Shown here: piece by piece, positions 9,808 through 60,687 of the stretch
How the letters are laid out: each line of letters opens with the position of its first letter
How positions within the stretch are numbered: the stretch's first letter is position 1
Notes under the pieces: model-generated
The model's input: the letters and a program-made list of their open reading frames with translations, nothing else
Told to the model about the DNA's origin: nothing
Database searches by the model: none
Translations under genes and position numbers: made by a program
Source: Candidatus Woesearchaeota archaeon
GTDB lineage: Archaea > Nanobdellota > Nanobdellia > Woesearchaeales > JACPBO01
Length of the DNA: 64,000 nt
NCBI GenBank assembly: GCA_030651135.1
Contig: JAUSCS010000006.1
Coordinates: 586,160 to 650,159 of the forward strand
Direction of reading: 5' to 3'

Positions 9808-10368
9808 ATGCTTAATGCAGCAATGGTATCAGTTGATTACTGGCAGAAGTTTGTATCTGGCCTTTGGGCTAAGCTTACATTAGCAGTGATTATCCTTTTG
9901 ATCGGATTCATAATCGGCAAATTGGCTGGCAGGCTGATACAGAAGATTCTGCACCAGTTTGAAGTCGATGTCGCATTCAAAAAAGCCGCTGGCATCAAAG
10001 TGACAATTGAAGGGATCATTGGCAGCATTATAACGTATTTTATTTATTTTATAGCAGTCATTATGGCACTTAACCAGTTCGGCTTGACAACACAGGTGCT
10101 TTACATTGTTTCAATCAGCGTAATCGTATTTGTGATAGTTGCCCTTCTGCTAGCTATAAAGGATTTCATGCCTAATTTTTTCGCAGGGTTTTTCATCTTC
10201 AGGAAAGGCATAATAAATGTCGGCGACAGGATAAAGCTCAAGAACATAGAAGGCAAAGTTATCGAAGTCGGATTGGTTGAGACAAAGGTAGAGACAAAAA
10301 ACAAAGACCACATATTCATCCCGCATTCAGAGATGATAAAAAGCGAGCTTACAATCAAGAAGCGCTGA
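9808..10368 (+). CDS. small MscS-type mechanosensitive channel
   Basis: A 186-residue MscS-superfamily protein. Three hydrophobic segments (about 17-42, 68-90 and 94-116) are followed by the pore-lining TM3-like helix with small residues and the beta domain, GFFIFRKGIINVGDRIKL, matching the MscS signature P-F-x-V-G-D-x-I. It is shorter than MscS, lacking the large alpha/beta cage. It opens under membrane tension to release solutes. Its 3' end overlaps the convergent UPF0147 gene by 14 nt. Confidence 0.85.
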   Translation: MLNAAMVSVDYWQKFVSGLWAKLTLAVIILLIGFIIGKLAGRLIQKILHQFEVDVAFKKAAGIKVTIEGIIGSIITYFIYFIAVIMALNQFGLTTQVLYIVSISVIVFVIVALLLAIKDFMPNFFAGFFIFRKGIINVGDRIKLKNIEGKVIEVGLVETKVETKNKDHIFIPHSEMIKSELTIKKR

Positions 10369-13556: not shown

Positions 13557-13613
13557 CATTTTTTACGGTTTCTTTCAGTTACTTTTTTAAATCAAACTTC
13601 ATTCTCGAGCTAT

Positions 13614-14204
13614 ATGAACAACTTCGAACTAAGAAGGCAGATCTTCCACCTCGCATTTGGCCTTGCTGTTGTATATCTTATTTACATGGGCATATTGACA
13701 GACATGGCAATGTTCCTGCTCATCATTGTTGGGTTTTTGATCTCCTTGATAAGCAAATACGCAAGGCTGCCATTAGTAGGATGGTTCTTGGACAAGTTTG
13801 AAAGGGAAGAAAATGCAAAAACATTCCCTGGCAGCGGCATGCTTTTCTTCATGATCGGAGCATTACTCACCCTTAAGCTATTCAATGAAAACATCGCGCT
13901 GGCTTCAATAATGATCTTGGCTGTGGGCGACTCTGTGAGTCACATCATTGGCGCAGAGTTTGGCGCTATACAAAATCCCTTCAGCAACAACGGCAAAAAG
14001 CTTGAGGGAACGCTTGTAGGAGTTCTGGTCGGATTTGTAGCGGCATTAGTCTTTGTAAGGCCTTTGGAAGCTTTATTGGCATCTGTAGGTGCAATGATCG
14101 CAGAAGTGATTGAGCTGGAATTCAATAAAAGGCCGGTTGATGACAACATTGTTGTTCCATTGGTTGCAGGGACGATAATTCTGCTTGTGAGAAAATATTT
14201 GTGA
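13614..14204 (+). CDS. CTP-dependent polyprenol/dolichol-kinase-like membrane protein
   Basis: A 196-residue polytopic membrane protein. The N-terminal ELRRQIFHLAFGL and the cytosolic-loop motif GDSVSHIIG with KLEGTLVG are typical of the phosphatidate cytidylyltransferase / dolichol-phytol kinase superfamily (cf. archaeal geranylgeraniol or dolichol kinase-like proteins). D in GDS is expected to bind metal and CTP. Six to seven helices are predicted. A TTTTTAAATCA TATA-like box at about 13583 precedes the gene. Confidence 0.75.
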   Translation: MNNFELRRQIFHLAFGLAVVYLIYMGILTDMAMFLLIIVGFLISLISKYARLPLVGWFLDKFEREENAKTFPGSGMLFFMIGALLTLKLFNENIALASIMILAVGDSVSHIIGAEFGAIQNPFSNNGKKLEGTLVGVLVGFVAALVFVRPLEALLASVGAMIAEVIELEFNKRPVDDNIVVPLVAGTIILLVRKYL

Positions 14205-14309
14205 TGGTTTCTTTATTAAAAAATATGCCTATATGGCTGATAAAAAGTCTTATCAAATACCGATTTAAAAGTAGTTACGAAGAAAAAATTTATAAAGTTA
14301 GCTGTTTCT

Positions 14310-14705
14310 TTGGCTGATATGATTGAGGTCGGGGTGGATGAGAAGTGTTGCTGCTGCTGTATTAGCTTGGCTTTAGGCTATCTGTTGCTGCATGATTCTG
14401 CAGGCGGAACAGTCTTGGCTGAATACAGCCGTGCTGGCAGGCCAGCCGCAATAGATGATGCTGTTAAATCTGCGCAACCAGATGCCTTTTTATTGAGGCA
14501 GATTGAAAATTATCAAAAAAATATCTCCCCAAAAATTAAAGAAACATTAGGAAAAGACAGGTTATGTAAATTTGAGCCATCCTGCTCGGAATATTCAAAA
14601 CAGGCAATAGAAAAATATGGCTCAATGAAGGGTGCTTTGATATCGATCAACAGGCTGCTAAGATGCAATCCTATAAGCAAGGGGGGCGCAGATCCTCTCA
14701 AATAA
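14310..14705 (+). CDS. yidD: YidD-like membrane protein insertion factor
   Basis: Residues about 60-131 match YidD (DUF37): the IENYQKNISP start, CKFEPSCSEYSKQAI with paired cysteines, KYGSMKGALISINRLLRCNP, and terminal GGADP. YidD acts with YidC in bacterial membrane protein insertion. The N-terminal 58 residues are unusual, with a run of five cysteines (EKCCCCCIS) and a hydrophobic stretch that may be a signal or membrane anchor. A YidD homologue in an archaeon suggests transfer from bacteria. A TTTATAAAG box lies 20 nt upstream. Confidence 0.8.
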   Translation: MADMIEVGVDEKCCCCCISLALGYLLLHDSAGGTVLAEYSRAGRPAAIDDAVKSAQPDAFLLRQIENYQKNISPKIKETLGKDRLCKFEPSCSEYSKQAIEKYGSMKGALISINRLLRCNPISKGGADPLK

Positions 14706-14756
14706 ATCATTTCTTGCACAATCTTTATAAATCCTCTTCAACAACACCCTATTTCT

Positions 14757-15785
14757 ATGCAAACTTTAACCGAAACTTTAAAGAAAATTTTCATTGAGAA
14801 CAAAGACCCATTCACAGATATTCTTGGGCAGGAAGCTGTAAAGAAGCAAATAAAGTCAGCTCTGCTAATGGACCGCCACATCATAATTGTCGGGCCGCCA
14901 GGAATTGGAAAAACAACACTGGCAAAAAACATTTCAAAATTATTGCCGGTAATCGAGATTAATGACTGCGGCTTCAGCTGCACAAAAGACACTCCACTCT
15001 GCCCAAAGTGCAAAGCAGGCGATAAAACAAAAACCAAGAAAATAAAAGGAGAAGACCGGTTCATAAGAATACAGGGATCTCCTGACCTGACAGCAGAAGA
15101 CTTATTGGGTGACATAGATCCGATCAAAGCATTGAAATTCGGGCCATTGAGCATTGAAGCCTTTACCCCGGGAAAAATATTCAAGGCAAACAATGGAATT
15201 CTCTTTTTTGACGAAGTTAACAGATGCCCTGAAAAGCTGCAGAACGCCTTATTGCAGGTCCTCTCTGAAAAAAAAGCAACCATCGGCAGCTACGATGTCG
15301 ATTTTCCGGCTGATTTTATTTTCATCGGCACAATGAATCCTGAAGATGCAAGCACAGAAAAGCTGAGCGATGTCTTTGTTGACCGCTTTGACTTCGTCTA
15401 CATGTCATATCCTGAAAATTTAGAAATAGAAACGAGAATTGTAAAAGAAAAAGGAAAATCTTTGGTTGAATTCCCGGAAGAATTATTGGAGCTAGTCATC
15501 CGGTTTGTAAGAATTCTTAGAGAAAGCGAAAAGCTTGAAAAACATCCGTCTGTAAGAGCTTCCATCGGCCTTTACGAGAGAGCGCAGAGCAATGCATTCC
15601 TGGCTAAAAAGAAAAAAGTAGATTTTGACGATGTAAAGGAAGCAGTTGTTTCTGTATTGAGCCACAGGATAGAATTAAAGCCAAGCGTCAAATATCTGCA
15701 AAGCCCGAAAGAATACATTGAAGAGCAATTCAGCAGCTTTTCCGACCGAAATCTGGAAGAGATTGAAAAAGGTGGTTACCGGTAA
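14757..15785 (+). CDS. MoxR/ChlI-type AAA+ ATPase
   Basis: A 342-residue AAA+ ATPase. Walker A is GPPGIGKT at residues 46-53, Walker B is LFFDEVN near 156, and sensor 1 is GTMNPED near 195. An inserted cysteine-rich loop (CGFSCTKDTPLCPKCKAGDKT, about 72-92) may bind zinc, as in magnesium-chelatase subunit I-like proteins. It overlaps the VWA gene that follows; MoxR-VWA pairs act as metal-insertion or protein-remodelling chaperones. No bacteriochlorophyll or cobalt-chelatase genes are near, so the client is unknown. Confidence 0.85.
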   Translation: MQTLTETLKKIFIENKDPFTDILGQEAVKKQIKSALLMDRHIIIVGPPGIGKTTLAKNISKLLPVIEINDCGFSCTKDTPLCPKCKAGDKTKTKKIKGEDRFIRIQGSPDLTAEDLLGDIDPIKALKFGPLSIEAFTPGKIFKANNGILFFDEVNRCPEKLQNALLQVLSEKKATIGSYDVDFPADFIFIGTMNPEDASTEKLSDVFVDRFDFVYMSYPENLEIETRIVKEKGKSLVEFPEELLELVIRFVRILRESEKLEKHPSVRASIGLYERAQSNAFLAKKKKVDFDDVKEAVVSVLSHRIELKPSVKYLQSPKEYIEEQFSSFSDRNLEEIEKGGYR

Positions 15786-25411: not shown

Positions 25412-25661
25412 GATTATGACCTCCGATTAGTTTTATTTGATGATGTATTATTTTGATCTATTTGCCAGAATTCCCTTGTTTTTGCCCCAAACATATGGCT
25501 TTTCAGACCAAAAGAAATTGAAGCATTATATCAAGAGATGCGACTAATAAAAGAATTTAAATGTAAAAGTTATAATATCGCGCATCATATTCCTTGGAAA
25601 ACAAAGCTTGTTAATAAAGTTTTCTTTTTTTAAGCCAAAAAATCTGAGAGTATTTATTGAA
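25412..25661. other. intergenic stretch with an orphan ORF tail
   Basis: About 250 nt between pheA and the first array repeat. On the plus strand a frame without an ATG start stays open at about 25462-25637 (...APNIWLFRPKEIEALYQ...), which could be the 3' remnant of a lost cassette gene. It ends with AAAAAATCTGAGAG, some 12 nt before the first repeat core. I see no tRNA and no further gene. Confidence 0.4.
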
Positions 25662-25770
25662 CATAACGATGTTATACACCTTTTCCCTCGTGAGCACCCT
25701 CGAAAATGGGAACCATTTTCAGAGATGGGGCGAACAGAGTGGAAAAGTTCGAAGAAAACGAAGTTTTCTG
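25662..25770 (+). repeat. array repeat site 1
   Basis: The core is CATAAC-GAT-GTTATAC (25662-25677). CTTTTCC (25680-25686) pairs with GGAAAAG (25741-25747). Inside lies GAAAATGG-GAA-CCATTTTC (25702-25720), bracketed by CTC and AGAG. A further GAAAAC-GAA-GTTTTC hairpin (25754-25768) follows. The cassette arm TTGGTGTGGG (25777-25786) pairs with CCCACACCAA at 26141-26150. Confidence 0.8.
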
Positions 25771-25795
25771 AGAAAGTTGGTGTGGGTGAGAAAGA

Positions 25796-26101
25796 CTATT
25801 TTTTCTTTTTAGATTTTATTTTTCCGATGATATAACCAACCAACATTCCAATTAAAATATAAAATAATAGACCGACTGAATATATAACAATTACATCCCT
25901 TAAACTGCACCATTTAAAACATATAAAAATAGTTGCTAATAATATTGGAAGACCTAATACTAAAGCAATAACACTTTGAATTATTCGTATGGAACTTAGG
26001 ACATCATTATAGGGTATTATACCATTTAAACCCACAATTATATAGACGATTAGTCCAATTATTCCCCCTTTCAACCATGTCGGTAACTTTTTCCATCCCA
26101 T
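25796..26101 (-). CDS. cassette 1: small membrane protein
   Basis: A 101-residue protein with three hydrophobic segments (about 10-30, 40-60 and 70-92) and a lysine-rich C-terminal tail (KIKSKKKK). No family is recognised. The gene points opposite to the recombinase. It is enclosed by the inverted arms TTGGTGTGGG / CCCACACCAA, with a second GAAAG / CTTTC pair next to them. Confidence 0.6.
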   Translation of the reverse strand: MGWKKLPTWLKGGIIGLIVYIIVGLNGIIPYNDVLSSIRIIQSVIALVLGLPILLATIFICFKWCSLRDVIVIYSVGLLFYILIGMLVGYIIGKIKSKKKK

Positions 26102-26153
26102 AAAGAAAAATAAAATCTTTAGCTATATAAAACTTTCGAGCCCACACCAATTG

Positions 26154-26283
26154 TATATAACGATGTTATATACCCCGACCTCGAGGCTTTCCTCCAACGA
26201 ACGAAAGTGAGTTGAGAGCTGAAAGCCTCAGAGCTGGAGGGTTGAGTACCGCAGTCCCGAAGGGACGAGGAACGGAAAAGTTC
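26154..26283 (+). repeat. array repeat site 2
   Basis: Has the longest core: TATATAAC-GAT-GTTATATA, with 8-bp perfect arms (26154-26172). The folded region contains GAGGCTTTC (26183-26191) pairing with GAAAGCCTC (26221-26229), AGAG after the stem, and GTCCC-GAA-GGGAC near 26254-26266. It ends with GGAAAAGTTC, as in sites 1 and 3. The next arms are AAAAGTCCGC (26284-26293) and AAGTTGGGGCAAAT (26323-26336). Confidence 0.8.
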
Positions 26284-26420
26284 AAAAGTCCGCGAGCTAA
26301 AATTTAGTTTAAGAATAAGTCAAAGTTGGGGCAAATAGTAAATTTATTAAACTTCAGGTTCGTTAGAAGTTATAAATAGGTTTTTAAATACTAATATATT
26401 CCTAAAAGAGGTGAATTAGA

Positions 26421-27308
26421 ATGAAAGTTATAAAAAATATTGTATGTCTTTTAATGATTCTGCTACTAATAGGTTTTACCTATGCTCAAGATGATTCAGA
26501 AATTGGGCCAGAAGGACATTCTTCAAATCTTTGTTTAGAAGATTCTGAATGTAGCCCTATATGTGTAAATCAAGATGAGTGTTATGTAAAAAGTTGCACA
26601 CCAAGATGTGTAGAAATTGGTCAATATAATGGTGGAAAGGGTAAATGTAAGGGGGAATTGGAATACTACACAAAAGACTTTAATGAGCAAGAAATAATAA
26701 AAGTAGCAGAAGAATTTTTGGTGTCAAGATTAGGAAGACAATATTTTGAAACACATTATGAATTTTCTTCAAGTAGAGCTATGGCAAATGGAAGGGGTTT
26801 AGAATTATTCTTTACATATGAAACTGAATTTCCTCCACAGGAAGCATTAATTCCACTTGAAATTCAGATGAGTATAGGGCATTGTAAAAATAAAGATTAT
26901 TACATCATAACCGGAAATGGTATTGTAGAACCTTTAAAAACAGAGGTTACGTATGATAAAGCTCTTGAAATTGCTAAATCAGAAGGATTTGAAAAAGATT
27001 TAATTATAACAAATGGTCTAATGGGTATTAAAATGGATGAACAATTTCAATCAAGATCGGGTTTACACTTCTTTGTGCAAAGACCTGCTTATATTATAAC
27101 CAAAAGAGGAGATGTAGGATGCGATGAATTTAAAACAATCTATATAGACGCATTTGAAGGTAAATACATAGAAAAGGTTTATGATAATGAATGTTATTTG
27201 GAGAGTGAGAAAAAGACCAGTGATTTAGACACCATAATAGAACCTGAAGTTGAAACAAAGAATATATTTCAGAAATTGTGGGAGTGGTTAAAAAACTTAT
27301 TTAAATAA
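26421..27308 (+). CDS. cassette 2: secreted cysteine-rich protein
   Basis: A 295-residue protein with a clear signal peptide (about residues 1-22, basic start then LLMILLLIGFTYA). A mature cysteine-rich segment follows (CLEDSECSPIC, then CYVKSCTPRC, with seven or more cysteines) and two PepSY-like alpha/beta repeats. The amphipathic tail is FQKLWEWLKNLFK. Probably exported and disulfide-bonded. AAAAGAGGTG before the ATG is a good ribosome site. The ends are enclosed by 14-bp perfect arms AAGTTGGGGCAAAT and ATTTGCCCCAACTT (27309-27322), the latter starting right after the stop codon. Confidence 0.7.
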   Translation: MKVIKNIVCLLMILLLIGFTYAQDDSEIGPEGHSSNLCLEDSECSPICVNQDECYVKSCTPRCVEIGQYNGGKGKCKGELEYYTKDFNEQEIIKVAEEFLVSRLGRQYFETHYEFSSSRAMANGRGLELFFTYETEFPPQEALIPLEIQMSIGHCKNKDYYIITGNGIVEPLKTEVTYDKALEIAKSEGFEKDLIITNGLMGIKMDEQFQSRSGLHFFVQRPAYIITKRGDVGCDEFKTIYIDAFEGKYIEKVYDNECYLESEKKTSDLDTIIEPEVETKNIFQKLWEWLKNLFK

Positions 27309-27369
27309 ATTTGCCCCAACTTACTAATTGCCATAAGGTAATATTTTGCGAGCGGACTTTTGAATTGTA

Positions 27370-27480
27370 TATAACGATGTTATACACCTTTTCCCTCGTG
27401 AGCCCCCCGAAAATTTGGGACAAATTTTCTGGCTGGGGCGAACAGAGTGGAAAAGTTCGACGAACGAAGTGAGGAGAAAG
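27370..27480 (+). repeat. array repeat site 3
   Basis: Core TATAAC-GAT-GTTATA (27370-27384). CTTTTCC (27388-27394) pairs with GGAAAAG (27449-27455). The inner hairpin is GAAAATTTG-GGA-CAAATTTTC (27409-27429). It differs from site 1 in both arms but stays perfectly paired. The preceding arm GCGGACTTTT (27352-27361) pairs back to 26284-26293. Confidence 0.82.
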
Positions 27481-27562
27481 TCACGAGGACACCGTCAAAA
27501 AGAAGTAAGGGGCTGGGCTTTCATAGAAATGTATTTATATCAGGGATTTAATTAAAGATAGC

Positions 27563-28009
27563 ATGAACAAGCCAAACTGTTTTATTTGTAATAAAGAAAT
27601 ATCATCTCCCAACTATAAGGATGACGAAGGGTTAGTGGTAAGTTATGATATATTCGCATTTCCACGAGCATACCATCGAAAATGTGCAATTTTCAGAGGT
27701 AAGTTTTTTCTGTGGGCCTTGAGTAGACTCATAAGGAGAGATTTCGAAAAGCGAAAAGGATGGCGTTCAACTGCATTAATTCCAATAGTTAATAATGAAG
27801 AGGCCTTTGGATGGACCATCATAAACTCTCCTTCTTTTAAATTCATTTCTATCTTTCTTACAGTAATTTATCTAGTTTTCTCAGGCATAGTGATTATTTT
27901 TGCAACTCAAGGGAGGAGTTTAACTCTAATTTTATTTTTCCCTATGCTTTTTCCAGGAATTGTAAAGTTGATATCTTACTTCAGATATGAAAGACTGTTT
28001 AAATCCTAA
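27563..28009 (+). CDS. cassette 3: zinc-knuckle membrane protein
   Basis: A 148-residue protein. Its N-terminus has CFICNKEI and, further on, YHRKC, which together could bind one zinc. Two transmembrane helices follow (about 92-112 and 117-138). I do not recognise the family. The gene is enclosed by 12-bp perfect arms CACGAGGACACC and GGTGTCCTCGTG and by an inner 11-bp pair GGGCTGGGCTT and AAGCCCAGCCC. Confidence 0.65.
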   Translation: MNKPNCFICNKEISSPNYKDDEGLVVSYDIFAFPRAYHRKCAIFRGKFFLWALSRLIRRDFEKRKGWRSTALIPIVNNEEAFGWTIINSPSFKFISIFLTVIYLVFSGIVIIFATQGRSLTLILFFPMLFPGIVKLISYFRYERLFKS

Positions 28010-28095
28010 TCTGAAATCGTATAAGCAAGTTAAGCCCAGCCCTAATCAATAAAATAGTTTTCCTTTTGACATTTAAAGGTGTCCTCGTGATTGTG

Positions 28096-28211
28096 TATAA
28101 CAATGTTATGTTCTCGTTCCCTCGAAACGAGCCCTCGCAAAATGGGACATTTTGCAGAGTGGCGAGTTTCAGAGATGGAACGACGAGGAAAACGAAGTTT
28201 TCCGAAGAGTC
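28096..28211 (+). repeat. array repeat site 4
   Basis: Variant core TATAAC-AAT-GTTATG (28096-28110). Nested stems follow: CTCGTTCC (28113-28120) against GGAACG..GAG (28177-28187), GAAAC (28124-28128) against GTTTC (28166-28170) followed by AGAG, and GCAAAATG-GGA-CATTTTGC (28137-28155). The last hairpin is GAAAAC-GAA-GTTTTC as in site 1. Next cassette arms: AGATTTTCTTTTC (28212-28224) and AAGTCGGGGGCAC (28259-28271). Confidence 0.8.
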
Positions 28212-28317
28212 AGATTTTCTTTTCAAAAGTTATGCAATAGCATAGAATATCAATAGTAAAGTCGGGGGCACCTACTATTCCAAAAGGTTTTTATAGATAT
28301 TAACTTACGGTTAAATT

Positions 28318-29277
28318 ATGATGGGGAAAAAGAGATTTTTTATTGGACCAGTAACATGGATTTTAGTTATAATAATTCTTTTTGTAAGTTATATTCTTGC
28401 ATACGCATTATTTAGTGGTTTGTATAAAGATACCAAAGTTATAGTTTATGGTAGTTTGGCTTTAATCTTCGGTTTGATTTGGCTAATTTATGTATTAACG
28501 AGTTCTTATATCCTAATCAAAGATAATCAAATATTATTCCCAAAGCAATATAAGATGAATCTTCAATTTATATTTGGATTAACATTCTTAATAGCCCTTT
28601 TTAAAAGAAGAAAAAGGATTAATATTAAGGATATTAGTAGTGTTGATTTGGTTGTAGGTTATACAGACTCTTTGGAATCATTACATCAACCATTAACCAT
28701 AACTCTTAAAGATGGGACAAAAGAAGTTTTCTTTATGAAATTCTATTCTAAAAAAACTGTAATGAATATTCTTAAGAATATGAAACAACTAAATCCTAAA
28801 ATAAATTTTTTAAAAAGTTGTAAAGAAATGATTGAATTAAAAAGTCCATTTAAGATGACTGAAACTGAAAAACAGGATTTCCGTAGAAAAAGAGGACTTC
28901 TTTTCTTTTGTTTAGGAATTATAGTAGTTATGTTTTTATTTATATTCTTTGTAAATGCGTTCGCTAAGTATGGAGGTGGAAATTTTGATATAAATAATAT
29001 CTCTATTCGGGATGATTTTCGAGAAGGGCATTATAATGAAAAAAGAATTCTGGTGTCCACAGAACAAGGACCATCCTTTGTAATCACTTACAAAAAAGGT
29101 TATGTTAATTATGGCGAAGTTACTAAATTTCTTGATGCTTTGAATACTAATAAGTCACTATATGCGAAGACCAGTATAAGTTATAAACAACTTTTTGGCG
29201 AAAGGTCTATGAAAGCAATAAAAGCAATGAATATAACTCTTTCTGATGGTAGAACATTTAATGTAGGTCTTCATTAG
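28318..29277 (+). CDS. cassette 4: membrane protein with a PH-like cytoplasmic domain
   Basis: A 319-residue protein with two N-terminal helices (about 12-32 and 41-62), then a strand-rich domain (about 65-165: IKDNQILFPKQ, ISSVDLVVGY, LTITLKDGTKEVFF) resembling bacterial PH-like domains. A third helix is at about 198-220, and the C-terminal domain lies on the outside or the opposite face. The arms AAGTCGGGGGCAC / GTGCCCCCGACTT (29290-29302) and AGATTTTCTTTTC / GAAAAGAAAATCT (29313-29325) are perfect over 13 bp each. Function unknown. Confidence 0.65.
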   Translation: MMGKKRFFIGPVTWILVIIILFVSYILAYALFSGLYKDTKVIVYGSLALIFGLIWLIYVLTSSYILIKDNQILFPKQYKMNLQFIFGLTFLIALFKRRKRINIKDISSVDLVVGYTDSLESLHQPLTITLKDGTKEVFFMKFYSKKTVMNILKNMKQLNPKINFLKSCKEMIELKSPFKMTETEKQDFRRKRGLLFFCLGIIVVMFLFIFFVNAFAKYGGGNFDINNISIRDDFREGHYNEKRILVSTEQGPSFVITYKKGYVNYGEVTKFLDALNTNKSLYAKTSISYKQLFGERSMKAIKAMNITLSDGRTFNVGLH

Positions 29278-29332
29278 GTTTTCAGTCTTGTGCCCCCGAC
29301 TTTTGTTTCTAAGAAAAGAAAATCTGATTGAA

Positions 29333-29437
29333 CATAACGATGTTATACACCCAAGCCTCGAATTTCCCCTTCACGAAGGGAACCTAAGTGAGAGTGGGAA
29401 ATTCAGAGGTGCGAGGCAAAACCCGAAGGGTTTTGAG
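29333..29437 (+). repeat. array repeat site 5
   Basis: Core CATAAC-GAT-GTTATAC (29333-29348), preceded by GATTGAA. Stems: GCCTCG (29355-29360) with CGAGGC (29412-29417), GAATTTCCC (29360-29368) with GGGAAATTC (29396-29404) followed by AGAG, CCTTC-ACG-AAGG inside, and AAAACCC-GAA-GGGTTTT (29418-29434). Next arms: TTGTCGGCAC (29438-29447) and AGAGGTCGGC (29464-29473). Confidence 0.8.
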
Positions 29438-29476
29438 TTGTCGGCACACTAAAATAAAAGAATAGAGGTCGGCGAG

Positions 29477-30043
29477 CTAAATTATTTCGTATTCACCAAT
29501 TGTTAAAACTTTAATTCCACTATAACCATACCAACCAGTTGTTTTAAATTTAGAGCCTTCTTCTAATCCTGGAAGAGTTATTTCTGTTTCTTCAGTAATT
29601 GTCCCGCTTTTGGTTGAATATACAAAATAACCATTTTCTTTTGTAAAAGAAAGTGTGGCACTTACTGCACTCTCATTTCCAGAACTTGCTGGAGCTTCTG
29701 GATCAAAAACTTTTCTAATCTTGGTTGGTCTTGCACTATATTGAAGTTGGATTGTAATTTCTTTACCTTCTTCAATTCCTGCTGAAACCCAATCAAAATC
29801 ACCGCTTATGGAATTAATTTTATCAATTCTTACAACTGTTGTATCTCTTGGACGAGTAATATCTCCTCCCTCTTCTTCTCCACCAACTAAAGATAACGAG
29901 AGGACAGTGCCTTCGAAATTTACATTTGGTAAAAATACTGCTTGGGGTAGGGGTTTGCTTCTCTCTTGATTCATAACTAAAAAAAGTCCAGCTATAATTA
30001 TTAATGCAATAATTCCAACAATCAAATAATATTTCTGTTTCAT
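29477..30043 (-). CDS. cassette 5: membrane-anchored extracytoplasmic protein
   Basis: A 188-residue protein with an N-terminal hydrophobic anchor or signal (about 5-24, YYLIVGIIALIIIAGLFLV) and a strand-rich exported domain. No lipobox cysteine is seen. No named family. The gene reads against the recombinase. Its arms AGAGGTCGGC / GCCGACCTCT (30114-30123) and TTGTCGGCAC / GTGCCGACAA (30136-30145) are perfect over 10 bp each. The distance from the second arm to the start codon is longer than in other cassettes. Confidence 0.62.
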   Translation of the reverse strand: MKQKYYLIVGIIALIIIAGLFLVMNQERSKPLPQAVFLPNVNFEGTVLSLSLVGGEEEGGDITRPRDTTVVRIDKINSISGDFDWVSAGIEEGKEITIQLQYSARPTKIRKVFDPEAPASSGNESAVSATLSFTKENGYFVYSTKSGTITEETEITLPGLEEGSKFKTTGWYGYSGIKVLTIGEYEII

Positions 30044-30149
30044 AATTCATTGATAGTTTAAGTTCTATTTAAACTTACCGAAAACTTCTGATTGAATTGA
30101 AGCTATCGTACGAGCCGACCTCTAATAATAAATAAGTGCCGACAATTGT

Positions 30150-30230
30150 GCATAACTCAATATATGCAAACTCCCTTATCTTTGGCCGTTATGAGCCCTG
30201 AAATGGCAAAATTTGGAGGATCATAACACG
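30150..30230 (+). repeat. divergent terminal site next to the recombinase
   Basis: GCATAAC (30150-30156) replaces the usual core, and the matching GTTATG appears only 32 nt later (30188-30193), followed by CATAAC again at 30222-30227. The folded region seen in sites 1-5 is absent. Its place between the last cassette and the recombinase promoter is that of an attI-like primary site. Confidence 0.5.
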
Positions 30231-30288: not shown

Positions 30289-30343
30289 CTGGAACATATA
30301 TAAATAAGCCGCAACACCCATTATTGACAAAGAAGTGATCAGC

Positions 30344-31183
30344 ATGGACATTCCCGAATTGATACGGAAGATCGGCCTGAGAAGAGGCCTTAGCATAAGG
30401 ACAATAAATACATACAGGCAGTGCGTAAAGCTCTTTTTCAGGCAGTGCAGTAAAGATCCTAAAGAAGTTAAAAAATCAGACATAGAAGGCTATCTCGACA
30501 GGCTGATAGAGAAAGGCAAAGCAGGCAACACAGTAAATGTTTATCTTAATGCCTTGAAATTCTTTTATAACGAAATTCTGCACAAGCGGCTTTTGTTAAA
30601 TATGCGGTTTTCAAAAACCCCAAAAGAAATGCCTGTTGTGCTTACGAAAGAAGAGACAAAAAGATTGATCGAAGCAATAGAAAATCCAAAGCACAGGCTT
30701 ATGGTAAAGCTGCTGTATTCTGCAGGCTTAAGGGTGAGTGAGCTTGTTAATCTGAAGCCCGAGCATTTTGAATTCTCAAAAAATTACGGTTGGGTGAGAC
30801 GAGGCAAAGGCAACAAAGACAGGTTGTTTATAGTGGCAGAAAAACTCAAGGAAGAATTAATGAGCCACATAACAAACGAATGCCCTTGCCAGCATTCGTG
30901 GCTTTTTGAGGGTAAAAATGGCCATATAACCATAACAACGCTTCAGAAAATAATAAAGACTGCAGCAAAAAAAGCCAGAATTGAAAAGAATGTCCATCCA
31001 CATACATTGAGGCACAGCTTTGCAACGCATCTGATTGAAAACGGATATGATGTCGCTTCTGTCCAGTCCTTGCTGGGCCATGGAAGCGCAGCTACAACAA
31101 TGGTCTACGTGCATATGGCTTCTCCGAGAATGATCAATGTAACAAGCCCGATAGAAGGATTATGGGCATCTGGGATGCAATAA
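30344..31183 (+). CDS. Xer/IntI-like tyrosine recombinase beside the cassette array
   Basis: A 279-residue tyrosine recombinase. The N-terminal core-binding domain (about 1-85) has the ISIRTINTYRQCVKLFF-type SAM-like helices. The catalytic domain has R in SAGLRVSEL (about 131), K in GKGNKDR, H-x-x-R in HTLRHSFATHL, H in LLGHGS and the nucleophile Y in TMVYVHM. It ends in INVTSPIEGL, like the tail of integron integrases (VRSPLDAL), but it lacks the extra IntI helix insertion before HTLRH. So it is Xer-like rather than a standard IntI. It starts at ATG 30344, with GTG 30335 as an alternative. Confidence 0.9.
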   Translation: MDIPELIRKIGLRRGLSIRTINTYRQCVKLFFRQCSKDPKEVKKSDIEGYLDRLIEKGKAGNTVNVYLNALKFFYNEILHKRLLLNMRFSKTPKEMPVVLTKEETKRLIEAIENPKHRLMVKLLYSAGLRVSELVNLKPEHFEFSKNYGWVRRGKGNKDRLFIVAEKLKEELMSHITNECPCQHSWLFEGKNGHITITTLQKIIKTAAKKARIEKNVHPHTLRHSFATHLIENGYDVASVQSLLGHGSAATTMVYVHMASPRMINVTSPIEGLWASGMQ

Positions 31184-44018: not shown

Positions 44019-44846
44019 ATGCAAAAAGAGGAACTAGTCAAGTACATTGAAAAATTGAAAACAGAGCTTAAGCTTAGAGCTTGCAGCCAAAGAACAATAC
44101 AGTCTTACATCTTTTTTATAAAACCATTTTTGGAATCAGTTGAGTCTGTGGAATCTATAAGCCTAGATCAGTGCAAGGCCTTCTTGGCAAACCTCATTGA
44201 CAAGTACAGCAATAAATCCAGATCCCTGGCAGTTTCAAGCCTAAGGTTCTTTTTCAAAAGGGTTGTGGAAAGGCCAGATATTTTTGTAAAACTAGAGATC
44301 CCTAAAAAAGAGAAAAAGTTGCCAACTGTTCTTTCAGTTTCTGAGATTAAGGCGCTCATTAATGCGGCGGATTTTGCTAAAACAAGGTTGATTATAAAAT
44401 TACTTTATTCTTCTGGCTTAAGGGTGAGTGAGCTTGTTAATCTGACTCCAAAAGATCTTGATTTTGAGCAGAGCATAGGGTGGGTTAGAAAAGGCAAGGG
44501 AAGCAAAGACAGAATGTTTAAAATAGCAGACTCTATATCCAAACAACTTAAAAAACATCTAAGCAAGAATTCAAATAACAAATATGTGTTTTCAGAAGAA
44601 AAGCCAATGTCCGCCAGAAATATACAGCTTTTAATAAAAAAGGCCGCCCAAAAGGCAAAAATAAACAAAAAGGTAACTCCTCATACGATGAGGCACAGTT
44701 TTGCCACACATCTGCTTGAAAGCGGAGAGAATCTGCTCGTTATACAGCAGCTCCTAGGTCATGAAAATCTTGAAACCACAAGGATCTACACACATATCAG
44801 CCAGGATCAAATCAAGAATGTTAAAAGCCCCTTAGACAGGTTATGA
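44019..44846 (+). CDS. xerA: XerA-like tyrosine recombinase
   Basis: A 275-residue recombinase with the full catalytic set: SSGLRVSEL, GKGSKDR, HTMRHSFATHLL, LLGHENLETTRIYTHI. It ends in VKSPLDRL. The size and lack of extra domains match archaeal XerA, which resolves chromosome dimers at dif. It is a relative, not a copy, of the recombinase at 30344 (shared catalytic core, different N-terminus). Confidence 0.88.
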   Translation: MQKEELVKYIEKLKTELKLRACSQRTIQSYIFFIKPFLESVESVESISLDQCKAFLANLIDKYSNKSRSLAVSSLRFFFKRVVERPDIFVKLEIPKKEKKLPTVLSVSEIKALINAADFAKTRLIIKLLYSSGLRVSELVNLTPKDLDFEQSIGWVRKGKGSKDRMFKIADSISKQLKKHLSKNSNNKYVFSEEKPMSARNIQLLIKKAAQKAKINKKVTPHTMRHSFATHLLESGENLLVIQQLLGHENLETTRIYTHISQDQIKNVKSPLDRL

Positions 44847-60267: not shown

Positions 60268-60687
60268 CTATTTTTCTATTATTTCTATATTCTCGGGTGT
60301 TGTGTTATACCATTTTTGCATAATCCAATATATAGTCTCTTGTAGTTTGCTATGCATCTTTTTGTCCGCCGGAATTATTGCTCTCAATGGATCATCTTTA
60401 GGAATGCAAATTATGCCAAATGGAAGATTATCTGCGAGACAACCACGATTATGATAGTCACTGAATTGATTTAAATGCGCTTCCTGAAGTAAAAGATGAT
60501 CATCTATTGTTAATGCTTCAATAGAGATAAAGCGCACATCTTCAGGTTTATTTTTATAGTCTTTTCCTGCTTCAGGCAAAAATGCATCATAACCCCACCT
60601 CTCCGAATAATCCTTAGGAATGCACATTTTCCCTGCTCTTTTTACAAGTACATGGTATTTCTTTGCAGTTTGAGCAGTATCGGTCAT
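60268..60687 (-). CDS. hypothetical protein of a three-gene unit (third)
   Basis: A 139-residue soluble protein (KYHVLVKRAGKMCIPKDYSERWGYDAF...). No motif is recognised. Its start overlaps the end of the upstream gene (4 nt), so the pair is coupled. Confidence 0.55.
   Translation of the reverse strand: MTDTAQTAKKYHVLVKRAGKMCIPKDYSERWGYDAFLPEAGKDYKNKPEDVRFISIEALTIDDHLLLQEAHLNQFSDYHNRGCLADNLPFGIICIPKDDPLRAIIPADKKMHSKLQETIYWIMQKWYNTTPENIEIIEK

Follow-up and report, generated by a model that had tools for sequence, protein, structure and literature searches.

Complementary cassette ends suggest an integron-like gene array with a XerA-type recombinase in a woesearchaeal archaeon

What keeps a repeat site folded while its sequence drifts? 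The question is raised by five sites in a 64,000-nucleotide (nt) stretch of a Candidatus Woesearchaeota genome (contig JAUSCS010000006.1, positions 586,160 to 650,159; the window), which alternate with small genes and lead up to a gene for a tyrosine recombinase. The host is a woesearchaeal (DPANN) archaeon with a 1.415-Mb genome and an archaeal RNase P. The sequence ATAACRATGTTAT occurs five times in this genome, every copy in the window array, where the site cores start at 25656, 26150, 27364, 28090, and 29327. Each interval, or cassette, holds one open reading frame (ORF), and none of the five window ORFs has a Pfam match. The row of small genes suggests an integron-like cassette array with a different type of recombinase. 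We think it probable that the five sites are junctions of such an array, run by a XerA-type recombinase that recognizes a folded strand. Complementarity within each cassette, chimeric array sites, a single site orientation, one recombinase clade, and strand-asymmetric motifs were all computed directly.

Folds at the five sites

A first-pass annotation of this DNA had proposed that the repeat sites conserve structure rather than sequence, and this was borne out: all five sites fold strongly, and their differing arms pair with their own partners only. Folded as RNA, the five sites had z scores of -3.2 to -5.2, with 0, 0, 2, 0, and 0 of 200 shuffles folding equally well; folded as DNA, sites 1, 4, and 5 had z scores of -4.2 to -6.7, similar on both strands. 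When inner arms were compared in a matrix, own partners paired at 8/8, 9/9, 9/9, 8/8, and 9/9 positions, whereas wrong partners reached at most 6. A long hairpin follows every core, and a second hairpin (C-GAA-G loop, at least 5 pairs) is present in four of the five sites.

25656 to 25679 (+), site 1 core, ATTGAACATAAC-GAT-GTTATACAC, dif-like
25680 to 25747 (+), site 1 long hairpin; inner arms 25702-25709 and 25713-25720
25753 to 25769 (+), site 1 short hairpin, C-GAA-G loop
26150 to 26173 (+), site 2 core, ATTGTATATAAC-GAT-GTTATATAC
26174 to 26241 (+), site 2 long hairpin; arms 26183-26191 and 26221-26229
26254 to 26266 (+), site 2 short hairpin, GTCCC-GAA-GGGAC
27364 to 27387 (+), site 3 core
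27388 to 27455 (+), site 3 long hairpin; inner arms 27409-27417 and 27421-27429
28090 to 28113 (+), site 4 core, ATTGTGTATAAC-AAT-GTTATGTTC
28112 to 28186 (+), site 4 long hairpin; inner arms 28137-28144 and 28148-28155
28187 to 28203 (+), site 4 short hairpin, C-GAA-G loop
29327 to 29350 (+), site 5 core
29355 to 29410 (+), site 5 long hairpin; arms 29360-29368 and 29396-29404
29418 to 29434 (+), site 5 short hairpin, AAAACCC-GAA-GGGTTTT

Several details of the earlier description needed revision. Its fully paired hairpin of varying sequence stands in all five sites as perfect own-partner pairing, but the site 5 stem is not the innermost one. That stem contains CTTCAC-GA-AGG-GAA-CCT-AA-GTGAGAG, and its arms read GAATTTCCC (5') and GGGAAATTC (3'), an order that had been reversed; the site 2 arms (GAGGCTTTC/GAAAGCCTC) had been omitted. 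The reported flanks (CTC before the stem, A-GAG after it) occur in sites 1, 2, 4, and 5, but site 3 has CCG..C-T-GG. The GAA-loop second hairpin is present not only in sites 1, 4, and 5, as described, but also in site 2, where it was missed; its equivalent in site 3 is only AC-GAA-GT. The comparison with attC sites is best kept as an analogy: extrahelical bases are shared, but the IntI-specific insert is missing from the recombinase, and the window hairpins lie beside the core rather than between its halves.

Pairing of cassette ends

Covariation was strongest not within a site but from one end of a cassette to its other end; the first-pass annotation had overlooked this pairing of core arms and flanking inverted repeats across each cassette. 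Core i has a right arm that is complementary to the left arm of core i+1. We compared the five variable bases after GTTA with the five before TAAY of the next site, in the window and in relatives found by their recombinase. Matched/mismatched arm tests of this kind replaced alignment-based covariation, a sequence alignment of nine hairpins having proved useless. All orientation, arm, and inverted-repeat counts refer to fetched loci with a detectable site. From the relaxed site count (116 sites, described below) onward, three loci were excluded as copies: L086 (of L047), L103 (of L120), and L082 (of L044). For the arm test, overlap or a missing left arm reduced the 116 sites to 113, and cassettes longer than 4 kb were excluded.

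Own cassette ends were complementary at a mean of 4.18 of 5 bases, with 48/76 perfect. Mispaired ends from the same locus averaged 2.63 of 5 (5.6% perfect; n = 266), and the two halves of one array site averaged 2.44 of 5 (4/113 perfect). The observed sum was reached by 0 of 20000 within-locus permutations, and with identical arm pairs collapsed, 29/54 distinct pairs were perfect versus 1.0%. Site 4 illustrates the pattern, as its core halves mismatch each other and instead match cassettes 3 and 4. Because half-cores move with their own cassette and array sites are chimeras, the crossover is placed in the core center.

From the core, the pairing extends into inverted repeats that lie on either side of the gene and are particular to each cassette. 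Own ends scored 31.9 versus 20.1 for mispaired ends (standard deviation, 3.4), with 56/73 cassettes above the 95th percentile of the mispairings and 0 of 20000 permutations as high. The total of 73 reflects the exclusion of cassettes shorter than 220 nt and the addition of five recombinase-proximal ones. A first comparison of inverted repeats used 27 hand-picked cassettes (six relatives plus the window), whereas the arm and 73-cassette tests used cassettes picked by pattern. Fourteen cassettes from later-fetched loci outside the order (L153 was excluded, being on the same contig as L085) gave arm means of 3.21 versus 1.75 (24 of 20000 permutations) and 7/11 for inverted repeats (12 of 20000 permutations). 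In the window, every cassette is bounded by inverted repeats that pair within, not between, cassettes.

25775 to 25786 (+), cassette 1 left inverted repeat, partner 26141-26152
25796 to 26101 (-), cassette 1 ORF, 101 amino acids (aa), no Pfam match
26141 to 26152 (+), cassette 1 right inverted repeat
26279 to 26336 (+), cassette 2 left inverted repeats: outer 26279-26293, inner 26325-26336
26421 to 27308 (+), cassette 2 ORF, 295 aa, no Pfam match
27309 to 27366 (+), cassette 2 right inverted repeats: inner 27309-27320, outer 27352-27366
27479 to 27520 (+), cassette 3 left inverted repeats: 27479-27493, 27510-27520
27563 to 28009 (+), cassette 3 ORF, 148 aa, no Pfam match
28032 to 28092 (+), cassette 3 right inverted repeats: 28032-28042, 28078-28092
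28208 to 28271 (+), cassette 4 left inverted repeats: 28208-28224, 28258-28271
28318 to 29277 (+), cassette 4 ORF, 319 aa, no Pfam match
29290 to 29329 (+), cassette 4 right inverted repeats: 29290-29303, 29313-29329
29436 to 29473 (+), cassette 5 left inverted repeats: 29436-29447, 29463-29473
29477 to 30043 (-), cassette 5 ORF, 188 aa, no Pfam match
30114 to 30147 (+), cassette 5 right inverted repeats: 30114-30124, 30136-30147

Joined own ends folded as DNA at -36.8 kcal/mol, compared with -23.5 kcal/mol for same-locus mispairings, and were better in 35/40 cases (window-type cassettes of at least 450 nt: 48, of which 40 had a same-locus partner). The junctions of four window cassettes fold as an inverted-repeat stem bearing the core hairpin and side hairpins. 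Selection on a folded single strand, as proposed earlier, thus has support from the junction energies and from three sets of matched/mismatched tests (on inner stems, core arms, and cassette inverted repeats). The selected unit, however, is mainly the junction formed when a cassette is excised (inverted-repeat stem, palindromic core, and two hairpins) and not the site as it stands in the array. DNA is favored over RNA as the folded molecule because the covariation spans the cassette ends across the gene and through the recombination core, and because it is accompanied by a gene for a recombinase and by sites of fixed orientation.

The recombinase, its relatives, and the folded strand

The recombinase passed the cut-off of the XerA_Arch profile NF040815 (234.2; cut-off, 220) and missed that of the integron-integrase profile TIGR02249 (207.6; cut-off, 265), to which it aligned in two pieces. 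Its best solved relatives by sequence were XerA (5hxy) and an integron integrase (2a3v). Residues 181-240 of 2a3v align to residues 179-196 of the recombinase, which is therefore some 42 residues shorter around the IntI-specific region, and the structural model (mean predicted local distance difference test score, 82.9) has no extra helix there, although its best structural match was 2a3v. The six catalytic residues are near-invariant in 64 homologues. The gene starts about 170 nt past the last, attI-like site.

30145 to 30167 (+), putative attI-like site (likeness judged by eye), cassette-type left half-core ATTGTGCATAAC plus TATATGC
30335 to 31183 (+), XerA-type tyrosine recombinase, 282 aa, catalytic R133, K158, H223, R226, H249, and Y258, no IntI-specific insert

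Related half-core/TATAT sites, again judged by eye, adjoin the recombinase in many loci of other genomes. A sequence at window position 60321 (GCATAATCCAATATATAG) is similar to the attI-like site (TGCATAACTCAATATATGC) and could be either a chromosomal dif site or a chance match. The window also encodes a second XerA homologue (275 aa, 44019-44846, + strand). In a tree whose bootstrap values had not quite settled, 28/28 array-linked recombinases fell within one clade of 50 (support, 96/89), and the second homologue fell outside it, in a 12-member group lacking arrays; it is probably the chromosomal dimer-resolution enzyme.

Homologues of the array recombinase (E ≤ 1e-72) were present in 79/352 genomes of the order and in 67/371 genomes sampled from the phylum, many of the latter identical to those of the order set. 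The relatives are mostly titled Woesearchaeota, Pacearchaeota, or Nanoarchaeota. Oriented by the recombinase, strict window-type sites numbered 74 forward versus 4 reverse, a count that includes two L103 sites and omits L043. A relaxed search that included attC-like sites found 116 forward versus 11 reverse in 36 loci, with reverse sites counted everywhere and forward sites counted only upstream of the recombinase in loci where its position was known. Window-type cores have 3 to 4 nt between TAAY and GTTA, with hairpins outside the core. G037, L089, L126, and others have sites of an attC-like form not seen in the five window sites, in which a hairpin of about 65 to 165 nt lies inside these same half-cores, set between three center nucleotides and one; L089 and L126 carry both forms within a single array.

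The cassettes themselves vary among relatives. The same-genus genome G001 has different cassettes, with the array on one contig, near a gene that by eye resembles the window's prephenate dehydratase, and the recombinase at the end of another. Cassette starts (the hairpin region) are 80 to 97% identical between distant genomes while the remainder differs, a pattern consistent with the exchange of cassettes or their ends. Two cassettes of one locus (L115:6131-7030 and L115:10088-10987) share 93% identity over 886 nt and are separated by other cassettes, which points to duplication or re-insertion. Some cassettes are very short, about 100 to 260 nt, and are seemingly structured DNA without a gene (L109:4141-4399, L051:402-602, and L123:2470-2575). 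Genes with Pfam matches occur in the G037 locus L047, at 13595-14041 (cytidine-deaminase-like), 14280-15125 (NAD-dependent epimerase/RmlD-like), and 9868-10113 (DUF2683). Two further motifs recur in L109, L123, L142, L042, and others: one near GTTATGACGCAGG, often located after the second hairpin, and CGAGTAATA, often located before the core. By eye, the final cassette of L142 seemed to contain a tRNA, but a search did not confirm it. Short-read assemblies probably hide many such arrays, because contigs of several relatives stop just upstream of the recombinase (G001:C5 end, G019:C44 start, G053:C33 start, and G156:C8 start).

Three features mark the + strand, the bottom strand when read outward from the recombinase, as the folded one. 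Tandem GA/GA mismatches on this strand numbered 14/152 versus 2/359, with 0 TC/TC, and C-GAA-G loops numbered 15/82 versus 0/44. C-GAA-G loops and tandem GA pairs are especially stable in DNA. The third feature is the extra unpaired 3' A, which the first-pass annotation had seen in several window sites and which proved general (35/115 single-base bulges versus 31/232 in controls; P = 0.0002 by Fisher's test; 116 sites versus 253 control stretches). The correspondence with integrons, which use the bottom strand, is a parallel and no proof.

A proposed mechanism, its rivals, and its meaning

A cassette would comprise a GTTA right half-core, the long and short hairpins, the left inverted repeat, the gene, the right inverted repeat, and a TAAC left half-core. 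The recombinase would cross over within the 3- to 4-nt core center, with a cassette leaving as a circle or entering, likely at the attI-like site (30145-30167). Excision would bring both ends of a cassette together in a junction, where the + strand could fold into a single structure: an inverted-repeat stem bearing one hairpin from the palindromic core and two at the side. The recombinase may recognize this folded strand as IntI recognizes folded attC, and such recognition would maintain pairing while the sequence drifts; structure would then be kept over sequence because the folded junction is the substrate. In this scheme we infer the circles, the use of single-stranded DNA, and the role of the attI-like site. 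More tentatively, DPANN archaea may have a recombination system in which both ends of a cassette form a folded single strand and a XerA-type recombinase without the integron's I2 helix uses it as a substrate.

Several results weigh against this mechanism. The + strand preference by DNA energies (65/95) showed no excess over controls (83/141; P = 0.17), and G.T versus A.C pairs in the inverted repeats were uninformative on the strand (11 versus 8). Among the 76 cassettes, 28 lack perfect arms, 11 of them matching at 2 or fewer of 5 bases; some of the imperfect cassettes probably result from sites that were missed or falsely called. The signal was weaker in the held-out loci outside the order, where 5/14 arms were perfect. 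A helix believed to let IntI hold single-stranded sites is absent from the recombinase, and the window genes face both directions (cassettes 1 and 5 minus; 2, 3, and 4 plus), in contrast to most integron cassettes. Circles and single-strand intermediates have so far not been seen.

The competing explanation that survives best, unlikely as we consider it, is that the recombinase acts on ordinary double-stranded dif-like cores, that the complementary ends stem from cassette making or repair (for example, hairpin-primed copying or conversion between cruciform arms), and that the hairpins aid extrusion or end transcription. It draws on the XerA score of the recombinase without an IntI insert and on the failure of DNA energies to single out a strand, and by eye the window-type cores are near the archaeal dif site of P. 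abyssi (in the excerpt of PMC2958812). On duplex cores, however, the arms should fit the protein and not each other at variable positions, whereas 29 distinct arm pentamers are matched. Hairpins of about 65 to 165 nt inside the core center would break a duplex core unless extruded, and the strand-asymmetric loops and mismatches are left without explanation. Several features do recall archaeal XerA/dif, namely, the recombinase family, the intact catalytic residues, and a 28-bp-like core (ATTG....TAAY....TTA; PMC2958812, excerpt). Unlike XerA/dif, the window has an array of five cores beside a paralogous recombinase instead of one chromosomal dimer-resolution site, and its array has hairpins and cassette-specific inverted repeats. 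Genes also lie as modules between Xer sites in the pdif modules of Acinetobacter plasmids, a likeness to the window array; to our knowledge, pdif modules lack hairpins, cassette-specific inverted repeats, and a dedicated recombinase beside the array.

We regard a canonical integron, with IntI and attC sites as reported for archaea, as very improbable, despite extensive resemblance. Shared with integrons are the tandem cassettes in uniform site orientation, a recombinase flanking the array together with a putative attI-like site, AAC/GTT half-cores, conservation of structure above sequence, extrahelical bases, and core arms that are complementary within one cassette and chimeric in the array; in integron arrays, too, R' need not match R'' (excerpt of PMC5371416). 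The attC-like sites in relatives and the structural match to 2a3v point the same way. Against this stand the missed integron-integrase cut-off with its split alignment, the roughly 42 missing residues, and window-type sites whose hairpins lie outside the core, not between the half-cores. The complementarity also runs, unlike that of integrons, into long cassette-specific inverted repeats around the gene. Archaeal integrons with IntI have been reported by Ghaly et al. 2022 (PMC9668308, excerpt), who treat the additional domain as part of what defines IntI. Strict membership is ruled out by the missing domain: the window system works like an integron yet falls outside the definition because its XerA-type recombinase lacks the IntI-specific (I2) insert.

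That the hairpins are RNA elements (regulators or terminators) of array transcripts, with the recombinase a bystander, seems highly improbable. The strong RNA folds agree with it, as does the + strand preference of RNA energies (77/96 versus 80/143). However, an Rfam search of the window returned only RNase P and three tRNAs, with zero matches in the array (a search of L047, L115, L042, and L089 also returned none), site orientation is constant while the genes face both ways, and covariation passes through the crossover point between neighboring sites. A row of transposons or miniature inverted-repeat transposable elements is the least probable reading, since, although inverted repeats end every window cassette, these terminal repeats are not common to copies but vary among cassettes, one core is common to neighbors, and the five window ORFs, having no Pfam match, include no known transposase.

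The folded junction of an excised cassette remains our preferred substrate, and it suggests a form of folded-DNA gene shuffling distinct from the integron route. In the open-access literature we found no paper on Woesearchaeota integrons; subscription papers and preprints lay outside this scope, and absence from print is not established. Nor did we find there a paper on Nanoarchaeota tyrosine recombinases with inverted-repeat cassettes, and the titles and abstract openings returned by further searches described no arrays of this kind. The finding bears on the open question of how integron integrases shifted from double- to single-stranded DNA, for which direct proof tying the I2 domain to single-strand use is lacking (according to the excerpt of PMC7790495). 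A recombinase without I2, within-cassette covariation, and both core arrangements, taken together, would make this shift directly testable. If the mechanism holds, the system would either run parallel to the integron or represent an extant intermediate on the path to it, because dif-like and attC-like sites (with the hairpin outside and inside the core, respectively) share arrays, and the arrays would be a gene-shuffling platform for archaea with small genomes.

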